Shown: positions 4,380 through 44,236 of the stretch, piece after piece
Layout of the letters: every line of letters begins with the position of its first letter
How positions within the stretch are numbered: the first letter of the stretch is position 1
Assembly: GCF_011304195.1 (NCBI RefSeq)
Contig: NZ_CP049887.1
Coordinates: 1,860,001-1,924,000 of the forward strand
Length of the DNA: 64,000 nucleotides
Origin: Vagococcus hydrophili
Lineage (GTDB): Bacteria; Bacillota; Bacilli; Lactobacillales; Vagococcaceae
Direction: 5' to 3'
Notes under the pieces: model-generated
What the model was told of the DNA's origin: nothing
The model's database searches: none
What the model saw: only the letters and a program-made list of their open reading frames with translations
Translations under genes and position numbers: made by a program

Positions 4380-5231
4380 TTAATTAAATGTTTTAAAAAT
4401 ACCATTTTCAGGTGATAACTTACTGTCTATCTCTTTGTTTCGATATAACCACTCTTGAAGTAACATGAAATCTAGTTCTGAGTAATTTTGTTGTTCTTCA
4501 TAAGAAAATTCAGTAAAGACTTGAGCTTTCTCCATTGGTAAATGACAGTGTTCTACAAGAAGAGCAACTTTTTCTTCTGGTGTTTGGCGATTAAATAAGT
4601 GTTGAGCTTCTTCCAAAGCTAAATGAAAATTTTTCACATCTTTTGGATTCTCTTTAACAAAATCCGAATCAAAACACCACATCACAAAGCAAGCGTCGAG
4701 TTCATTGGAATGCCAGATAACTTCTGTCTCAGGAATGGTTAAGGCTTCTGAAACAAAAGGATCAATCGCCACCAAACCATCAATTTCATGATTTTTAAGC
4801 TTCTCCATTCGCTCGTAGGTATTGTTGATATAAACATAGCTTGTTTTAGGAAGACAATCATAAAGATAAGTCTCCAAGAAAAATTTAAAAAGACCTGTTC
4901 GATTAATCCCCACTCTAAAATCAGTTAATAGGTTAGCATGTTTGTATCCAACTAGTTGAATGGTTCTAGTTAATGTGGAAGTAATCACAGCCTTTTTACC
5001 ATCCTTTAGGTAGTAAAAGAAGAAGGAGGTGTCCCCCATTTGAGCATCCACGTGCCCTTCTAAAAAGGCAGCCTTTCCTTGGAAGATGAAATCATCAGCC
5101 AAGGAAAGTTGAACGGATACCCCGTGTTTTTCAAAAAGGTTAAGTTCTTGAGCTAAAATGACAGGTAAAACAAGAGGATTAATTCTATTTTGTTGTAATC
5201 TAATGGTTGCGATAATAAACCATCCTTTCAA
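4380..5231 (-). CDS. Signal-less periplasmic-binding-fold protein (SsuA/NMT1-like)
   Basis: Protein of up to 283 residues resembling the SsuA/THI5/NMT1 group of binding-fold proteins (LPVILAQELNLFEKHGV, then GHVDAQMGD). It has no signal peptide or lipobox, unlike ordinary ABC substrate-binding proteins, so a cytosolic role is more likely. Members of this fold without a signal include metabolic enzymes such as MqnA/MqnD and THI5; whether this one is catalytic is unknown. It is the last gene of the minus-strand operon, directly after the UbiA stop codon. The stated start is a TTG immediately after that stop with no ribosome site. A GAAAGGATGG site just downstream suggests a non-standard ATT (5216) or ATC (5213) start, giving an amino terminus at ATIRLQQN. 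The function is not assigned. Confidence 0.65.
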   Translation of the reverse strand: MKGWFIIATIRLQQNRINPLVLPVILAQELNLFEKHGVSVQLSLADDFIFQGKAAFLEGHVDAQMGDTSFFFYYLKDGKKAVITSTLTRTIQLVGYKHANLLTDFRVGINRTGLFKFFLETYLYDCLPKTSYVYINNTYERMEKLKNHEIDGLVAIDPFVSEALTIPETEVIWHSNELDACFVMWCFDSDFVKENPKDVKNFHLALEEAQHLFNRQTPEEKVALLVEHCHLPMEKAQVFTEFSYEEQQNYSELDFMLLQEWLYRNKEIDSKLSPENGIFKTFN

Positions 5232-38489: not shown

Positions 38490-39500
38490 TTAATAATAAT
38501 TAATTCCCATAGCTTTTTTGACTTCATCTAAGGTAGTAGCAGCACGAGCTTCTGCCTTTATACTGCCTGCTTTTAAAATACTAAGTAGATAATCTTCTTC
38601 TTTTGCTAATTGAATTCGTCTTTCACGTATAGGACGCAATGTCTCTTGAATAATCTCATTAAGATAGAGTTTAATTTTCACATCTCCAAGTCCACCTTTT
38701 TCGTAGTGTTCTTTAAGTTCAGCAATTTTTTTATGATCATCTCCAAAAATCTCTAAATATTCAAAGACCATATTACCTTCAACTTGTCCTGGATCATTCA
38801 CATGAATATGATTCGGATCAGTGTACATGCTCATGATTTTTTGTTTAATTGTATCTGGCTCATCAGAAAGGTAAATTCCATTATTTAAAGATTTACTCAT
38901 TTTACCTAAGCCATCTATTCCTTTTAAGCGTTCTTGGTTTTTCTTTGGTAAGACAATTTCAGGTTCAACCAAACAATCTGTCTTGTAAATCCGATTAAAA
39001 CTTCTAACAATTTCTTTGGTCTGCTCAAGCATAGGTAGTTGATCGCCACCAACCGGAACATGAGTTGCTTTAAAAGCAGTGATATCAGCAGCTTGACTGA
39101 CAGGATAGGTTAAAAATCCTGCTGGTAAACTGGTTTCAAAATTCTTTTCTTTCATTTCTGATTTCACAGTAGGATTTCGGTAAAGTCTTGAAACAGTAAC
39201 AAGATTTAAATAGTACATCATCAGTTCTGAAAGTTCGGGTATCTTTGATTGGATAAAGATGGTTGATTTGCTTGGATTAATTCCCACTGCTAAATAATCA
39301 AGTAAGACTTCTTTTAAATTATCTTGAATTTTTTTCGGATTATCCGCATTATCTGTTAAAGCTTGTTGATCAGCAATCATAATAAATTGTTCTGTATTTT
39401 CTAAGTCTTGAATCGCCACGCGGCTTTTAAGTGAACCAACGTAATGTCCTAAATGTAATTTGCCAGTTGGACGATCTCCAGTTAAATAAGTATGTGTCAT
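38490..39500 (-). CDS. trpS: Tryptophan--tRNA ligase
   Basis: Class I aminoacyl-tRNA synthetase of 336 residues that charges tRNA-Trp. The HIGH-type motif is GKLHLGHYVG and the KMSKS loop is LGKMSKSLNN. Length and the segment PVGGDQLPMLEQTKEIVR fit bacterial TrpRS. AGGAGG lies 7-8 bases before the ATG. A T-box leader at 39523-39770 with a UGG specifier confirms the amino acid and shows control by uncharged tRNA-Trp. Confidence 0.96.
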   Translation of the reverse strand: MTHTYLTGDRPTGKLHLGHYVGSLKSRVAIQDLENTEQFIMIADQQALTDNADNPKKIQDNLKEVLLDYLAVGINPSKSTIFIQSKIPELSELMMYYLNLVTVSRLYRNPTVKSEMKEKNFETSLPAGFLTYPVSQAADITAFKATHVPVGGDQLPMLEQTKEIVRSFNRIYKTDCLVEPEIVLPKKNQERLKGIDGLGKMSKSLNNGIYLSDEPDTIKQKIMSMYTDPNHIHVNDPGQVEGNMVFEYLEIFGDDHKKIAELKEHYEKGGLGDVKIKLYLNEIIQETLRPIRERRIQLAKEEDYLLSILKAGSIKAEARAATTLDEVKKAMGINYY

Positions 39501-39522: not shown

Positions 39523-39770
39523 AAAAACTCACCCTCCAATCGATATAAACCGATTGGAGGGTGAGTGAAATCACGGTGCCACCTCTAAATTAACTTAAGT
39601 AGTTAAAACTACGCTTGGTAACGCTAGCTTAGCGGATAGACCTACTTAGTCATTCAATCTATCAGTTCAAAAGCCCATTCCTATATCTTTTTTTACTAAT
39701 TTACACCAACCATTAGCTCTCTTTGAAAAAATAAATATAGTACTTTTCTTTATTAATCACTTCTTTGTAT
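39523..39770 (-). promoter_or_regulatory. Tryptophan T-box riboswitch
   Basis: Read on the minus strand, a stem I region (AGAGAGCTAATGGTTGGTGT, then GAATGGGCTTTTGAAC) is followed by the conserved T-box AGAGGTGGCACCGTG (39586-39572) and a long terminator hairpin ACTCACCCTCCAATCG / CGATTGGAGGGTGAGT (39566-39525) with a T run. The probable specifier is TGG at 39677-39675, the Trp codon, followed by the expected purine. Uncharged tRNA-Trp would pair with both sites and favour the antiterminator. Confidence 0.95.
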
Positions 39771-39927: not shown

Positions 39928-40794
39928 ATGAACGTTGATTGTTTTATTGAAGCAAGAAAATCAAAAGGATTATCTCAAAGTGAATTAGCCGAAAATATTT
40001 GTACACAAACAACTTTGAGCCGTTTTGAGAACAATGGTCAAGTTCCTAATTTAAAAACACTGATTAAATTATGTACCAGATTGGATTTTCCGATTGGTGA
40101 TTTATTTCCTAAAGTCGGTTTAAAAAATACAGAAGTCGTTAAAAAAATGGATAAGATAGAGTTTTATTTTATTACTAGTGAATATGAAGAAGCTCAAAAT
40201 TTACTGGAGTCATTAAAGATCACTTCAGAAGATGAAAATTCAGATATTACTTTAAGGTACTTGTATTTAAAAGGTTTTCTAATGTTTTTTAGAAAAGAAG
40301 AACTAACAGATATTTTATTTACTTTTGATCAAATTTTATTGAATGAAACAACTACTGAAAAGAAAATGTATCAATTATTAGCTTATACAGGTATTGGCAT
40401 GACTTATGCTAGAGAAAATGATTTTGAAAAATCTGAGTTTTATTTTAGTAAAGTGATTGGTCAAATCTATGATTGTCCTACAAATAGTATCGAGGATATG
40501 TGGCGTGTTTTAAATATGGTCTTTCATGCAGGTGTTTATTATGCAGAAACTAATGAAATTGAAATAAGCAATGCGTTACTGGAGTATGCTATTACAATAT
40601 GCTCAGAAAATCACGTAACTTATTATTTAGCAAGAGCTGCTTTCCAATTAGCTTTAAATAGTGTGGTTGAAAAGAAGGACATCCCTGAAACCTTAGAACT
40701 GCTGTATGATGCAAGAGCTTATGCAAAAGTAAACGGCAATCAGGTGTTGTTAAAAAAGATTAAAGCTTTAGAAATAGAGCTTAAGGAGGTCTAG
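39928..40794 (+). CDS. XRE-family regulator with TPR-like domain (Rgg/PlcR-like)
   Basis: Cytosolic regulator of 288 residues. The amino-terminal helix-turn-helix is KGLSQSELAENICTQTTLSR, followed by an alpha-helical repeat domain (YTGIGMTYARENDFEKSEFY) as in Rgg and PlcR-type sensors. AAGGAG precedes the ATG. The stop is 3 bases before the apbE ATG, and the end of this gene supplies apbE's ribosome site (AAGGAGG), so it is likely co-transcribed with, and regulates, the flavinylation genes. Ligand unknown; no peptide gene is visible nearby. Confidence 0.85.
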   Translation: MNVDCFIEARKSKGLSQSELAENICTQTTLSRFENNGQVPNLKTLIKLCTRLDFPIGDLFPKVGLKNTEVVKKMDKIEFYFITSEYEEAQNLLESLKITSEDENSDITLRYLYLKGFLMFFRKEELTDILFTFDQILLNETTTEKKMYQLLAYTGIGMTYARENDFEKSEFYFSKVIGQIYDCPTNSIEDMWRVLNMVFHAGVYYAETNEIEISNALLEYAITICSENHVTYYLARAAFQLALNSVVEKKDIPETLELLYDARAYAKVNGNQVLLKKIKALEIELKEV

Positions 40795-40797
40795 CGA

Positions 40798-41715
40798 ATG
40801 AATATTGCTAATGAGCAAGTCCGTTTAATGGGAACCGTGATTGACTTACAAATTAGTCATACAAATGCCCAAGAGATCCTTAAAGAAACCATCCTTGATT
40901 TAAAAATGTATGAGAAACGCTTTAGCGCCAACGATCCCACATCCGAGTTGATGGCTGTTAATACCCAAGCAGGCATCAAGAGAGTAAAAGTAAATAGAGA
41001 ATTGTTTGAGCTAATAAAATTAGGGAAAGAACATAGTCTTGCTGAGGGAAGTCTTCTTAATATTGCCATAGGGCCACTGGTTCAAAAGTGGCGTATCGGT
41101 TTTAGTGATGCCACTGTTCCTAATGACGAAACAATAAAAGAATTACTCCAAACCGTTAATCCGAAAAAAATCCTTCTTAATGAAACAGAACATAGTGTTT
41201 ACCTAGAAAAAGGCATGTTAATTGATTTAGGTGCTCTAGCTAAAGGCTTTATTGGGGACCTTGTTCTAGGTAAATTAAAACAACAAGGTGTAAGGTCCGC
41301 TCTCATTAATTTAGGTGGCAATATTTTAACTTTGGGAACACCACCTAATAAAGAATGTTGGAAAATTGGGATTCGAACACCTGGCGAATCTAGAGAGTCT
41401 TATGACTATATTTTGAAGGTTAAAGACAAATCAATTGTCACATCAGGTATTTATGAGCGTGTTTTAAAAACTAAAAACAAGACCTATCACCACATTCTTA
41501 GCCCGATAACAGGTTATCCAATGGAGACTGAAACTCTAAGTTTAACGATTGTTTCAGATAAGTCAGTAGATGGGGAAATTTGGACAACTCGTTTGTTTGG
41601 TCAAACGCCTGCTGAAATAATGAATGAAATCAATCAACATCCCGAAATTGAAGGTATTTTGATTACCAAAATTAAAACATACTTGAGTCGTTATATAAAA
41701 AATTATATAAACTAA
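40798..41715 (+). CDS. apbE: FAD:protein FMN transferase (ApbE), cytosolic form
   Basis: Enzyme of 305 residues that moves FMN from FAD to a Ser or Thr of a target protein, using Mg. Family segments are present: KRFSANDPTSELMAVN, DLGALAKGF, INLGGN, and HHILSPITGYP. There is no signal peptide or lipobox, unlike the many exported ApbE lipoproteins, so flavinylation should occur in the cytosol. The gene lies between an XRE regulator and two NAD(P)H-FMN-reductase-like genes; the second reductase has two C-terminal D-x-x-S-x-A-S motifs of the type recognised by ApbE, making it the obvious substrate. Confidence 0.92.
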   Translation: MNIANEQVRLMGTVIDLQISHTNAQEILKETILDLKMYEKRFSANDPTSELMAVNTQAGIKRVKVNRELFELIKLGKEHSLAEGSLLNIAIGPLVQKWRIGFSDATVPNDETIKELLQTVNPKKILLNETEHSVYLEKGMLIDLGALAKGFIGDLVLGKLKQQGVRSALINLGGNILTLGTPPNKECWKIGIRTPGESRESYDYILKVKDKSIVTSGIYERVLKTKNKTYHHILSPITGYPMETETLSLTIVSDKSVDGEIWTTRLFGQTPAEIMNEINQHPEIEGILITKIKTYLSRYIKNYIN

Positions 41716-41730
41716 TGAAAAGAGGACATA

Positions 41731-42342
41731 ATGATGAAAAAAATGATTGGCTTAGTTGGAACAAATTCTGACAACTCAACAAACAGACAGTTATTACAAT
41801 TTATGAAAGAACACTTTAAAGGAGTTGCTGAGATTGAAATTGTCGAAATTAAAGAGATTCCTTTATTCAATAAACCAGCAGATAAACAAGTACCAGAAAT
41901 TGTGACAGAGATCGCTAAAAAAATCGAAGCATCAGAAGGAGTAATTATTAGTACACCAGAATATGATCATACCATTCCAGCTTCTTTAATGAATGCTTTA
42001 AACTGGTTATCGTATCACATTTACCCATTTTTAGATAAACCGGTCATGATTACAGGCGCATCATACGGCACACTAGGCTCATCGCGCGCCCAGCAACATT
42101 TACGTCAAATGTTAGATTCTCCAGAACTCAAAGCGCGTATCATGCCAAGTTCTGAATTTTTACTTAGTCACTCTCTACAAGCATTTGATGAAAGTGGTAA
42201 GTTAAAAGATCAAGTCCAAATTGAAAAATTAAACGGCTTATTTAAAGATTTTGTTATCTTTGTAGATATTATGAAACAACTAGGAAACGCTCATGAAGCA
42301 AATAAAGAAGAAGCAGAAAATTTTTCTTGGGAAACCATCTAA
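41731..42342 (+). CDS. NAD(P)H-dependent FMN reductase-like flavoprotein
   Basis: Flavodoxin-fold protein of 203 residues. The phosphate-binding loop is GTNSDNSTNRQLL; STPEYDHTIPASLMNALNW and GASYGTLGSSRAQQHLRQM are the flavin-binding loops of the family. It lacks the C-terminal flavinylation tail of its neighbour. It shares clear similarity with the first half of the next protein (for example GSSRAQ, LRQ and LD positions), so the pair arose by duplication. AGAGGAC precedes ATG 41731; ATG 41734 is an alternative. Probably hands electrons from NAD(P)H to FMN or quinones. Confidence 0.88.
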   Translation: MMKKMIGLVGTNSDNSTNRQLLQFMKEHFKGVAEIEIVEIKEIPLFNKPADKQVPEIVTEIAKKIEASEGVIISTPEYDHTIPASLMNALNWLSYHIYPFLDKPVMITGASYGTLGSSRAQQHLRQMLDSPELKARIMPSSEFLLSHSLQAFDESGKLKDQVQIEKLNGLFKDFVIFVDIMKQLGNAHEANKEEAENFSWETI

Positions 42343-42357
42343 TAGGAGGAAATGAAA

Positions 42358-43542
42358 ATGAAATTAGTCGGAATTGTAGGTTCTAATGCAGACCTTTCTT
42401 ATAACAGAATGTTACTTAATTACATGTCAAAAGCGTTCAAAAATTTAGTGGAGATTGAAGTCTTAGAGATCAAAGATATCCCTTTGTTCAACCAAAGTGA
42501 TGATCAAACTAATAGTGCACCTATTCAATATTTAAACAAAAAAATATTAGAAGCAGATGGCGTGATTATTGCTACACCTGAGCATAACAGAAGTATTCCA
42601 GCAGCACTAAAAAGTGTTTTAGAATGGCTATCATTTAAAATCCATCCATTAGAAGATAAACCTGTGATGATTGTGGGAGCTTCTTATTACGATCAAGGGT
42701 CGTCTCGCGCTCAACTTGATTTACGCCAAATTTTAGATGCTCCTGGTGTGAATGCCATGGTGTTACCAGGGAATGAATTTTTACTTGGTAAGGTTAAACA
42801 AGCCTTTGATGAAGCGGGGAATCTTAAAGACCCAAAAACAAAATCATTTTTAGAAGGGACATTGAAAAAATTCATCCAATTTGTTTCTCTAGTGACAAAA
42901 CTAGAAGAAAAAGAAGCCGCAGTTTTACCTAAAGAAGATTTGAATGCGACTGGAAAAGTTGAGACGACTATTGAAGGTGTTAATATGGCAGCCGAAGATT
43001 GGGTAGAGGTTGCTGCTGAAAAAGTTGGTGCAGCTGAGGGTAGTGATTATGTCAAATTAAATCGTGGGTTATTAACCGTGGATCAATTGAATTATTTCCT
43101 TTCATCTATGCCAATGGAAATTACTTATGCAGATGATAACAATCAATTCTTATATTATAATCATGTGTTACCAGCCGAAGAGATGTTAGCCTCAAGACAA
43201 CCAGGTCAAGTGGGAAATCCATTAGCAAATTGTCACCCAGAAGCGTCTCTTAAAGGGGTTGAGTGGGTAATTCAACAGTTACGATCAGGGGCAACGGATT
43301 GTGTCCGTGTCAACGTTCCAACTCATGGACCAGATAAATATGTGGTTCATAATTACCAAGCGATTCATGATGAAGAAGGAATTTATAAAGGAATCAATGA
43401 ATATATCTTAGATTTTAAACCGATTGTAGAATGGTATTTAAAACAAACAGGTCAAACACTTGTTGGAGATGTGGATGCAGTGTCTAGTGCTTCAACAAAA
43501 GATGATGATGTGGATGCTGTTTCTAGTGCGTCGGTGAAATAA
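42358..43542 (+). CDS. FMN reductase / PAS-like fusion with two C-terminal flavinylation motifs
   Basis: Protein of 394 residues with three parts. Residues 1-185 are a flavodoxin-fold NAD(P)H:FMN reductase (GSNADLSYNRMLL, ATPEHNRSIPAALKSVLEW, GSSRAQLDLRQIL). Residues about 235-355 form a PAS_10/DUF438-like domain (SMPMEITYADDNNQFLYYN, NCHPEASLKGVEWV). The tail has DAVSSAST (373-380) and DAVSSASV (386-393), separated by KDDDV: both fit the ApbE target pattern D-x-x-S/T-x-A-S/T, with Ser379 and Ser392 the expected FMN acceptors. ATG 42358 lies 8 bases after AGGAGG. Inference: a cytosolic electron carrier with one bound and up to two covalent flavins. Confidence 0.88.
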   Translation: MKLVGIVGSNADLSYNRMLLNYMSKAFKNLVEIEVLEIKDIPLFNQSDDQTNSAPIQYLNKKILEADGVIIATPEHNRSIPAALKSVLEWLSFKIHPLEDKPVMIVGASYYDQGSSRAQLDLRQILDAPGVNAMVLPGNEFLLGKVKQAFDEAGNLKDPKTKSFLEGTLKKFIQFVSLVTKLEEKEAAVLPKEDLNATGKVETTIEGVNMAAEDWVEVAAEKVGAAEGSDYVKLNRGLLTVDQLNYFLSSMPMEITYADDNNQFLYYNHVLPAEEMLASRQPGQVGNPLANCHPEASLKGVEWVIQQLRSGATDCVRVNVPTHGPDKYVVHNYQAIHDEEGIYKGINEYILDFKPIVEWYLKQTGQTLVGDVDAVSSASTKDDDVDAVSSASVK

Positions 43543-43553
43543 GTTTAAATTTT

Positions 43554-43606
43554 TTGTAGATTAACTAGAAATAGTGTAAACTGTAATTACATAGTAATTA
43601 CAGTTT
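43554..43606 (+). promoter_or_regulatory. Promoter and palindromic operator of the toxin-antitoxin operon
   Basis: TTGTAG (43554-43559) and TAAACT (43577-43582) have a 17-base spacer. Overlapping the -10, AAACTGTAATTAC (43578-43590) and GTAATTACAGTTT (43594-43606) form a perfect 13-3-13 palindrome, as expected for autoregulation by the antitoxin or the complex. Confidence 0.8.
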
Positions 43607-43629
43607 TCTTATTGAATGGAGGGATATCT

Positions 43630-43959
43630 ATGATTACTAAAACAAGAAAACAAGGCAACTCTATTATGTTAACTGTTCCCAAAGAGTTTGATGTTCCAAA
43701 TGGTGTTGAAGTAGAAGCTAAATTGGTAGAGAATGGGATACTATATGAATTTGTCGAACCTAAAAGAGATTTTTTTGATTTTAGCGAAGATATTTTATCA
43801 GACATTATTTCTGAAGGCTACAACAATGAAGAGATATTGCAAGAATTTAAGAAAAGAAAAACAAAATTAACGTCAGATTTTAAGTCCATTGCTAAAGAAA
43901 CAGTTATTAATTCTAAACCAATGACCAAAGAGGAGTTGGCGACAGAAATTGGCCTATGA
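43630..43959 (+). CDS. AbrB/MazE-type antitoxin
   Basis: Protein of 109 residues. The amino-terminal SpoVT/AbrB-like swapped-hairpin domain (TKTRKQGNSIMLTVPKEFDV) should bind DNA; the remainder is helical and probably wraps the toxin. ATG 43630 follows GGAGGG; an earlier in-frame ATG at 43612 precedes this site. Its last 11 bases overlap the toxin gene, the usual layout for a type II pair, and a perfect palindrome lies in the promoter. Confidence 0.85.
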   Translation: MITKTRKQGNSIMLTVPKEFDVPNGVEVEAKLVENGILYEFVEPKRDFFDFSEDILSDIISEGYNNEEILQEFKKRKTKLTSDFKSIAKETVINSKPMTKEELATEIGL

Positions 43960-44236
43960 GATTATTCCTTCAAAACATGTTGTGAAATACTTAAAGAAAT
44001 TAAGAGAAAAAACATTAAAAGAAAAATTTCTTAATGTAATGTATGATGAAATAGCTACTAATCCCTATAATGGTGAGCAAAAAACGGGTGATCTAACTGG
44101 TGTTTGGTCTATGGGATTTAAGTATGCCGGAACGACTTACAGAGTAGCTTATGAAATTAAGGATAACGTAGTAGTACCTGTTCTGTTGTGTGGCACACAT
44201 GAAAATTTTTATGAGCAGTTAAAAAAGATTAGGTGA
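43949..44236 (+). CDS. RelE/ParE-superfamily toxin
   Basis: Small basic protein of 95 residues with the RelE-type pattern: EIIPSKHVVKYLKKL helix, GDLTGVWSMGFKYAGTTYRV strand region with conserved Arg, and a C-terminal CGTHENFYEQLKKIR. Such toxins cleave mRNA at the ribosome or, in ParE relatives, poison gyrase; the sequence looks closer to RelE/YoeB. It starts with TTG inside the antitoxin's last codons, with AGGAG 12 bases upstream. The low-efficiency start and overlap keep it below the antitoxin level. Confidence 0.85.
   Translation: MAYEIIPSKHVVKYLKKLREKTLKEKFLNVMYDEIATNPYNGEQKTGDLTGVWSMGFKYAGTTYRVAYEIKDNVVVPVLLCGTHENFYEQLKKIR

Follow-up and report, generated by a model that had tools for sequence, protein, structure and literature searches.

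ApbE enzymes attach FMN to their target proteins through the FMN phosphate. The FMN_red proteins of Lactococcus lactis (WP_021723379.1) and L. taiwanensis (WP_205872264.1) carry tails that are flavinylated by the cognate ApbE in a Ser/Thr-dependent manner, the modification being detected in gels and abolished by mutation to Ala (Huang 2024, PMC11334425; here and below, PMC papers are cited from the portions accessible to us). In Klebsiella pneumoniae a cytosolic ApbE flavinylates a soluble fumarate reductase, as recounted in PMC12052999, where motif substitutions of Gly to Ala and Thr to Ser lowered flavinylation. Peroxide production in Lactobacillus johnsonii has been ascribed to a system of FRedA, FRedB and LjPAS, of which the fused forms EF1227 / Lp2732 were also noted (Valladares 2015, PMC4500961). 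FRedA and FRedB are flavin-free when purified separately; purified FRedA/B oxidises NADH using free FMN with the PAS protein absent, reduces FMN with a Km of 20 uM, forms H2O2 and has no quinone activity, while LjPAS delays assembly of active FRedA/B and is encoded by a gene that is repressed when oxygen is low (PMC4500961). HcrAB of Lactiplantibacillus plantarum reduces hydroxycinnamates with NADH and FMN (PMC10295242). The text of Valladares 2015 contains neither "ApbE" nor "covalent", a word search of that of Huang 2024 returned no mention of a PAS domain, H2O2 or L. johnsonii, and among open-licence PMC papers we found none that joins ApbE flavinylation to the FRedA/B-LjPAS peroxide system.

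Here we describe a four-gene operon in a 64,000-nucleotide stretch of the Vagococcus hydrophili genome (contig NZ_CP049887.1, positions 1,860,001 to 1,924,000; hereafter the window), which we consider, with a probability of about 0.6, to encode a cytosolic NADH:FMN oxidoreductase with tethered flavin acceptors that probably passes electrons to O2. All four open reading frames lie head to tail at 39928-43542, where the initial annotation had placed them. An XRE-family regulator of 288 aa (39928..40794, + strand; HTH_3, with a weak TPR match below the Pfam cut-off) is followed by an ApbE of 305 aa, annotated as FAD:protein FMN transferase (40798..41715, +; PF02424, E 4.9e-72), a tail-less FRedA/B-like FMN_red partner subunit of 203 aa (41731..42342, +; PF03358, E 2.9e-33) and an FMN_red protein with a PAS_10 domain and a predicted flavinylation tail (42352..43542, +; PF03358, E 5e-36; PF13596, E 3.1e-28). 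The apbE gene and both FMN_red genes share one strand with gaps of 15 and 9 bases, and of the regulator, which in the initial annotation would control production of the carrier, a linked homologue occurs at just 23 of the 61 loci, the window included. A terminator-like hairpin, a consensus match only, lies 3′ of the last gene (43578..43606, +), the region holding two such hairpins against a shuffle mean of 1.8. For the tailed protein, the ATG at 42358 is a likelier start than 42352 because it is better spaced from the GGAGG at 42345-42349; it gives a protein of 394 aa. The tail holds two copies of D-A-V-S-S-A-S separated by the linker TKDDDV, as initially described, at residues 373-379 and 386-392 from ATG 42358 (375-381 and 388-394 from 42352). 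The first spans 43474..43494 (+), its predicted FMN-acceptor Ser codon at 43492-43494, and the second 43513..43533 (+), with the corresponding codon at 43531-43533.

The ApbE domain scores 243.1 bits against a curated PF02424 cut-off of 25.6 and aligns over nearly its full length with the solved FMN transferase 7esa (E 3.5e-60), including the stretches TSGIYER and YHHIL.P.TGYP; it is thus predicted to be a FAD:protein FMN transferase. The proposal that the system lacks export signals also stood: a heuristic for hydrophobicity and lipobox, rather than SignalP, found neither a hydrophobic N-terminus nor a lipobox in ApbE, and inspection by eye of the N-terminus of the tailed protein, MKMKLVGIVGSN, showed no signal peptide or lipidation site. 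Two other proteins found in this genome, both with FMN_bind, carry lipoprotein signals. The profile matches and motifs agree with the soluble reductase, PAS domain, two predicted FMN sites and signal-less ApbE that the initial annotation had put forward.

When the window tail was shuffled 2000 times, at least two motifs arose in 2 shuffles. We extended the comparison to 61 loci, comprising the window and 60 relatives hand-picked for genus spread among the full-length matches listed. The strict motif D-x-x-[ST]-x-A-[ST] was present in 59 of the 61 fused proteins (at least twice in 57), and a relaxed form, with Ala also permitted at position 4, in all 61; the FMN_red partner had a homologue in 61/61 loci and the strict motif in 0/61. 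The 54 tails that could be anchored contained 137 motifs, whereas shuffling gave 2.7 on average and 9 at most, the remaining seven tails being omitted from this test only, and the protein bodies contained none in 19,193 aa, a count that excluded proteins of at least 500 aa. One further match occurred in the window ORFs of at least 150 aa (18,421 aa). Since the motif is found in 59/61 fused proteins, in no partner and almost never in shuffles, chance does not account for the tail. Four of the seven codons differ between the two copies in the window, and the synonymous nature of every difference suggests that the tail peptide is under selection. Position 5 is S, as in the window, in 51 of the 137 family motifs, G being usual.

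The tail and a signal-less ApbE are present together and missing together, with one clear exception. The apbE gene was linked to the fused gene in 50 of the 61 loci, and in the other 11 genomes an ApbE without a detectable signal (by the heuristic) was found elsewhere, so that the co-occurrence proposed for checking in the initial annotation was seen in 61/61 tailed genomes. Here G182 counts through a partial gene and a fragment at a contig edge. In the signal screen as a whole, a broken ApbE in L127, in pieces of 70 and 184 aa, fell below the length limit, and the ApbE of G164 has a longest frame of 371 aa with an uncertain start. Tail-less proteins are under-drawn in this sample because the query used for ranking includes the tail; to offset this bias, 39 partial-match genomes were searched and 40 regions fetched from 36 of them. 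Reductase pairs without a tail, which the initial annotation had counted as evidence against itself, do exist (seven loci), but six of the seven lie in genomes without a signal-less ApbE; the exception, G209, keeps one with neither a tail nor an FMN_bind match. Four genomes (G325, G091, G253 and G185) were left out of the tail-less class, the pair being incomplete or not recognised. G325, G091 and G253 each possess a signal-less ApbE as well as FMN_bind proteins, and the four of these FMN_bind proteins that were read had no obvious signal. Among the matches listed for 100 genomes from two families, that of the window and a neighbouring one, at least two apbE genes were found in 37 of 38 genomes with a full-length tailed protein but in only 3 of the 56 that lacked it; six half-length matches formed a class of their own (two apbE in five, one in the sixth), and G342 and G346 were scored as lacking the target, and G390 as lacking ApbE, by absence among the matches listed.

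The gene set is common among lactic acid bacterial relatives of V. hydrophili. The tailed reductase family also occurs on plasmids of Enterococcus and Lactococcus; one relative from an L. lactis plasmid, L208, has apbE, the FMN_red partner, PAS_10 and two motifs. One scan of viral_contigs returned no relative of the tailed protein. Four of 398 genomes in a phylum sample matched the tailed protein at 1e-30: the window genome, one full-length match from the same order and two of FMN_red length only. At this threshold the fused protein thus looks concentrated in the order. The accessible passage of a paper on competition between E. faecalis and L. crispatus concerned the locus tag of another FMN reductase.

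Lactobacillus encodes the PAS half on its own, as a protein of ~28 kDa, and it is this protein that carries the tail. Forty-four such loci were found, 42 in records with Lactobacillus in the title, which include many metagenome assemblies, and the other two under the names Alkalibaculum and Faecalicatena, perhaps through mislabelling; 43 of the 44 proteins have the strict motif, and that of L. johnsonii ATCC 33200 has three. In 8/8 named Lactobacillus genomes a signal-less apbE is found at a distance of 0.9-2.1 kb from the FMN_red pair, and none of the three pairs read in named genomes has a tail. The split proteins are 40-48% identical to the matching window stretch, with the pre-PAS stretch in common, and the L. 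johnsonii protein matches PF13596 with E 1.4e-20. An AlphaFold model of the PAS-plus-tail stretch, computed with 23 Lactobacillus-type rows, had a mean pLDDT of 43, too poor for use. The tailed Lactobacillus protein looks like the known modulator of H2O2 production in gut lactobacilli (LjPAS type).

On the reading we prefer, the two FMN_red proteins of the window would pair as a FRedA/B-like heterodimer and the signal-less ApbE would place FMN on the last Ser of both tail motifs behind PAS_10. NADH would reduce the non-covalent FMN of the heterodimer, which would in turn reduce the tail FMNs, built-in substrates held close; these would hand electrons on, most probably to O2 with formation of superoxide/H2O2, and the PAS domain may position or gate the tail. 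What the sequences themselves show here is the anatomy, the conservation of the tail, its occurrence together with signal-less ApbE and the split form. The reductase that the initial annotation took as the target is probably not a lone one but one half of a FRedA/B-like pair. The initial annotation had named quinones, oxygen or a stress sensor as possible acceptors; by the L. johnsonii assays alone, O2 would be favoured and quinones disfavoured, the latter because those published assays were negative (PMC4500961). O2 as the acceptor is borrowed from L. johnsonii, whose pair shares only some 40-46% identity with that of the window and which is the one species for which we found NADH-dependent H2O2 formation by such a heterodimer in print. 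Because the Lactobacillus module is a separate protein of LjPAS type, the tail can presumably serve between molecules. We suggest more tentatively, at somewhat below even odds, that PAS plus tail, fused or free, is a soluble multi-FMN cytosolic carrier, a tethered substitute for free FMN, that LjPAS is such a carrier and the natural acceptor of FRedA/B, and that its inhibitory effect is a property of the unmodified form.

Several observations count against the preferred reading: the window motifs have S at position 5 and a Ser acceptor, and the substitutions reported at those positions lowered flavinylation (PMC12052999); G209 has a signal-less ApbE without a tail or FMN_bind match; LjPAS slowed FRedA/B assembly and did not help it (PMC4500961); and the tail is dispensable in vitro, since purified FRedA/B supplied with free FMN oxidises NADH even when the PAS protein is left out (PMC4500961). 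The S at position 5 and the separability of tail and signal-less ApbE in G209 would equally suit a tail that serves recognition or solubility and bears no FMN in V. hydrophili, but a motif kept despite variable linkers, two copies that diverged synonymously and the joint absence of tail and signal-less ApbE make this highly improbable. The tail might alternatively fold back so that its FMN fills the FMN_red active site in place of the non-covalent FMN, the second motif then being redundant. Such an origin was proposed by Huang 2024, in whose AlphaFold models the sites of the Lactococcus proteins fall within an unstructured extension, close to where flavin is bound by conserved residues (PMC11334425), and FRedA and FRedB are flavin-free when purified apart (PMC4500961). 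We nevertheless consider it unlikely, as 51 of the 54 anchored tails have two to four motifs, exceeding the need of one FMN_red site, one long relative has nine, the linkers range from 3 to 62 residues, and the Lactobacillus tail is on a separate protein.

PAS domains are often sensors, and the PAS-tail module could serve mainly in sensing redox state or oxygen, the state of the tail FMNs altering the PAS domain and, through it, the way the heterodimer assembles. Slower formation of active FRedA/B with LjPAS, and repression of its gene at low oxygen, would fit (PMC4500961), but the LjPAS assayed was made in E. coli and presumably unmodified, placing the modified form outside those assays. Two to four flexible tags resemble carriers more than a single sensing site, and relatives without a PAS match keep an adjacent apbE, two having FMN_red with a tail (L119, L120) and one FMN_red with only relaxed motifs (L122), which makes a mainly sensory role quite improbable. 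Somewhat unlikely, too, is a carrier of the same kind whose acceptor is another reductase or compound, H2O2 being a side reaction. The paralogues L104 and L115 fuse FMN_red to FMN_bind and FAD_binding_2, in which covalent FMN presumably feeds the reductase, the pair adjoins genes annotated as flavocytochrome c and fumarase in one L. fermentum record, and HcrAB uses NADH and FMN to reduce hydroxycinnamates (PMC10295242); the window operon, however, encodes no further reductase, and the L. johnsonii work links the pair to H2O2 (PMC4500961).

The preferred reading, of tethered flavin acceptors probably serving O2, would link two published stories, flavinylation by ApbE and the formation of peroxide in lactobacilli, and would offer a reason why such lactobacilli keep a signal-less ApbE near the reductase pair; if it is true, LjPAS would bear up to three FMNs. 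Cytosolic flavinylation would also reach beyond the fumarate reductases, into a family of reductases that occurs in many genera of one order. The system is nonetheless less new than the initial annotation implied, flavinylated Lactococcus FMN_red tails and the cytosolic ApbE of Klebsiella having already been published (PMC11334425, PMC12052999).

Comparison with known systems sets the window operon apart from the extracytosolic flavinylation clusters of Meheust 2021, which have a signal peptide or lipidation site, none being seen in the window ApbE or its target. The tailed protein had no FAD_binding_2 match in a Pfam profile scan, unlike the reductases that combine FMN_red, FMN_bind and FAD_binding_2. 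HcrB presumably resembles the fusions of roughly 805 aa among the fetched relatives. HcrAB and the window both have two adjacent flavin reductase-type subunits, HcrAB being NADH- and FMN-dependent (PMC10295242). K. pneumoniae and the window share a signal-less ApbE and a cytosolic target, predicted in the window, but the Klebsiella target is a fumarate reductase (PMC12052999), whereas a Pfam profile scan of six window proteins, the target included, returned no FMN_bind (PF04205). Several covalent FMNs per chain, as predicted for the window protein, are known from multi-flavinylated FMN-bind proteins, which use folded FMN-bind domains in place of bare seven-residue tags on a tail (PMC10339131, PMC11334425). 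The Lactococcus FMN_red proteins, likened to the window protein by their description, share with it PF03358, a C-terminal extension with one to two motifs and a co-localised apbE, but were framed as extracytosolic (PMC11334425), whereas no export signal was seen in the window ApbE or its target. The FRedA/B-LjPAS system has, like the window, paired FMN_red subunits and a PAS partner, the PAS domain being on the FMN_red chain in the window and separate in L. johnsonii (PMC4500961).

The operon proposed in the initial annotation is present in the window as four ORFs arranged head to tail on the + strand: an HTH_3 regulator, ApbE and an FMN_red protein of 203 aa, assigned by domain search, followed by an FMN_red+PAS_10 protein of 396 aa (394 aa from a better-spaced ATG at 42358) that ends in ...GDVDAVSSASTKDDDVDAVSSASVK. 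A terminator-like hairpin (43578-43606) follows the last gene, and directly behind it a small ORF and a ParE-like toxin gene (PF15781, E 1.2e-27; together 43612-44236, +) are likely a toxin-antitoxin pair. A T-box leader (39554-39766, -; Rfam RF00230, 125.6 bits) lies upstream of an ORF (38490-39500, -) that, from reading its sequence, we take to be tryptophanyl-tRNA synthetase-like. The initial reading, of a cytosolic cassette in which ApbE places covalent FMN on the tail of a reductase, was for the most part correct but less novel than assumed. The operon is of a kind already published and is present in many genera of the order.

The initial annotation had suggested searching homologs for such tails and for their co-occurrence with signal-less ApbE, and both searches bore it out. 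With the tailed protein as query against 395 genomes of the order, 60 full-length relatives were picked by hand for genus spread among the matches listed, giving 61 loci with the window. The strict motif, D-x-x-[ST]-x-A-[ST], occurs in 59/61 target proteins, with at least two copies in 57; the two without it (loci L081 and L090) keep D-x-x-A-x-A-S copies, so that the relaxed motif, with Ala also allowed at position 4, is found in all 61. The partner FMN_red protein was found in every locus and in none carries the strict motif. Together the 54 anchorable tails contain 137 motifs, where shuffling gave 2.7 on average and 9 at most (2000 rounds); the protein bodies, 19,193 aa in all, contain none. 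Of the 52 tails in this anchored set that have a motif, 51 have their last one stop 1-3 residues short of the C terminus, and inter-motif linkers are 3 to 62 residues long. The two window copies differ in 4/7 codons, every difference being silent. Along with L081 and L090, an L. fermentum locus (L210) has several D-x-x-A-x-A-S copies, position 4 having changed from Ser/Thr to Ala, and no strict motif; such tails possibly point to an ApbE whose recognition has changed.

The apbE gene is linked to the target in 50/61 loci, and in each of the remaining 11 genomes an ApbE lacking a hydrophobic N-terminus is encoded elsewhere; in one genome, G182, ApbE is represented only by a partial gene and a contig-edge fragment. 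By a hydrophobic N-terminus/lipobox heuristic, no signal is seen on any of the 67 ApbE proteins above 250 aa that the fetched loci encode. Eleven other ApbE proteins, from the window genome and further searched genomes, bear one (as do two more that were read), and in a 95-member tree all 11 are found to the same side of a branch supported at 100/97. Among the matches listed for two families, the window's own and a neighbouring one, with six half-length target matches set apart, at least two apbE genes occur in 37/38 genomes with a full target versus 3/56 without. The two other FMN_bind proteins found in the window genome bear lipoprotein signals, leaving the tailed reductase as the sole cytosolic candidate substrate found there.

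FMN_red pairs without a tail, which the initial annotation had named as evidence that would count against it, do exist in seven loci (L109, L110, L114, L116, L117, L128 and L129), but six of the seven genomes are also without signal-less ApbE: three (G195, G044, G138) gave no ApbE match and three (G156, G248, G368) have signal-bearing ones only. The exception, G209, has a signal-less ApbE (locus L156), and neither a tailed protein nor an FMN_bind match was found in that genome; this ApbE is either an orphan enzyme or a relic.

In Lactobacillus, PAS_10 and tail form a gene of their own. Searching named genomes with this split protein gave 44 loci. One or more strict motifs are present in 43; in the exception, L204, a stop truncates the protein. 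The PAS_10 protein of L. johnsonii ATCC 33200 (244 aa, 28.0 kDa, three motifs) has the size of the published LjPAS and is the best PAS match in its genome, and on these grounds looks like an LjPAS-type protein. In 8/8 named genomes searched, an FMN_red pair and an apbE match are 0.9-2.1 kb apart, with the PAS protein elsewhere, and all eight ApbE proteins lack a hydrophobic N-terminus. The pairs read in L. johnsonii, L. jensenii and L. delbrueckii have no tail (one L. delbrueckii subunit has an internal relaxed-motif match outside any tail), and those of the other five are open frames of at most 191 aa. In this split form the tail thus goes with the PAS half and ApbE with the pair. L. johnsonii also encodes a further PAS-like protein, smaller at 178 aa and with the single motif DAESGAS (region L246, 6035-6571), ~2 kb from the LjPAS-type gene; such a protein is also encoded at 4581-5117 of locus L095.

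Besides the main fused form, FMN_red-PAS_10-tail, three loci (L119, L120, L122) encode FMN_red-tail proteins without a PAS match beside apbE, the tail of L122 holding relaxed motifs only, and four (L106, L108, L121, L130) have a more distant PAS_10. Long forms reach 713 aa with six strict motifs (L067) and 882 aa with nine (L062); further long relatives are ORFs of 891 and 901 aa in genomes G336 and G292. In these long relatives PAS-type segments are repeated, with up to nine motifs strung along the chain as "beads on a string". FMN_red-FMN_bind-FAD_binding_2 proteins of about 810 aa were identified by Pfam in L104 and L115, and several more were assigned solely from size and alignment; the L104 and L115 fusions show two domain orders, with FMN_bind central or C-terminal, and each adjoins an FMN_red partner without motif. 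At 1e-30, 111 plasmid records match (Enterococcus 95, Lactococcus 8), and five of these regions were read. An E. faecium plasmid from a patient isolate (L207, NZ_CP011282.1) carries regulator, apbE, FMN_red and a target with three strict motifs between IS1216 copies. Two L. lactis regions hold apbE and the pair, an IS5 element separates the two in an L. paracasei region, and apbE was not found in the stretch read of an L. fermentum region.

In our view the FMNs on the tail most likely serve the FMN_red pair as tethered substrates. FRedA and FRedB of L. johnsonii are each inactive alone and together form an NADH oxidase producing H2O2, with FMN taken as a substrate (Km 20 uM; Valladares et al. 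2015, PMC4500961). FMN would be transferred onto the window protein's tail and would be kept in non-diffusible form near an enzyme that uses it at 20 uM; flavinylation itself has been shown in Lactococcus relatives. Electrons would follow the path from NADH through FMN to O2 shown for the L. johnsonii relative, passing to tail FMN, with O2 the presumed final acceptor in Vagococcus hydrophili and a putative role for the PAS domain.

Two points in PMC4500961 stand against tethered substrates: free FMN alone suffices in vitro, and LjPAS was inhibitory as assayed, slowing FRedA/B assembly; the paper makes no mention of modified LjPAS. Among rival readings, that the covalent tail FMN is a captured cofactor we regard as rather improbable, and that the PAS-tail module is a sensor seems to us more doubtful still. 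A final acceptor other than O2 is unlikely, if worth keeping in mind; quinones had been suggested initially, and FRedA/B has no quinone activity (PMC4500961).

Two results are new: evidence for a joint absence of tail and signal-less ApbE, and recognition of the LjPAS-type protein as a candidate for flavinylation at several motifs. Méheust et al. 2021 (PMC8238504) required a signal peptide or lipidation site in every cluster they retained, so a window-type operon would be excluded. No paper linking the systems of Huang et al. 2024 (PMC11334425) and Valladares et al. 2015 was found in the open-licence literature; the former mentions neither L. johnsonii, H2O2 nor Valladares, and the latter does not mention ApbE. 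The latter notes LjPAS homologues fused to FMN_red (EF1227 and Lp2732 in its figure 1). Huang et al. described FMN_red proteins whose C-terminal extension holds one to two motifs and whose genes adjoin apbE; two of these proteins, from Lactococcus, are flavinylated, a Ser/Thr-to-Ala change abolishing the modification. The window operon shares with these the C-terminal motif extension and the adjoining apbE; in L. johnsonii, PAS_10 and tail are separate from the FMN_red pair, whereas in the window they are fused to FMN_red.
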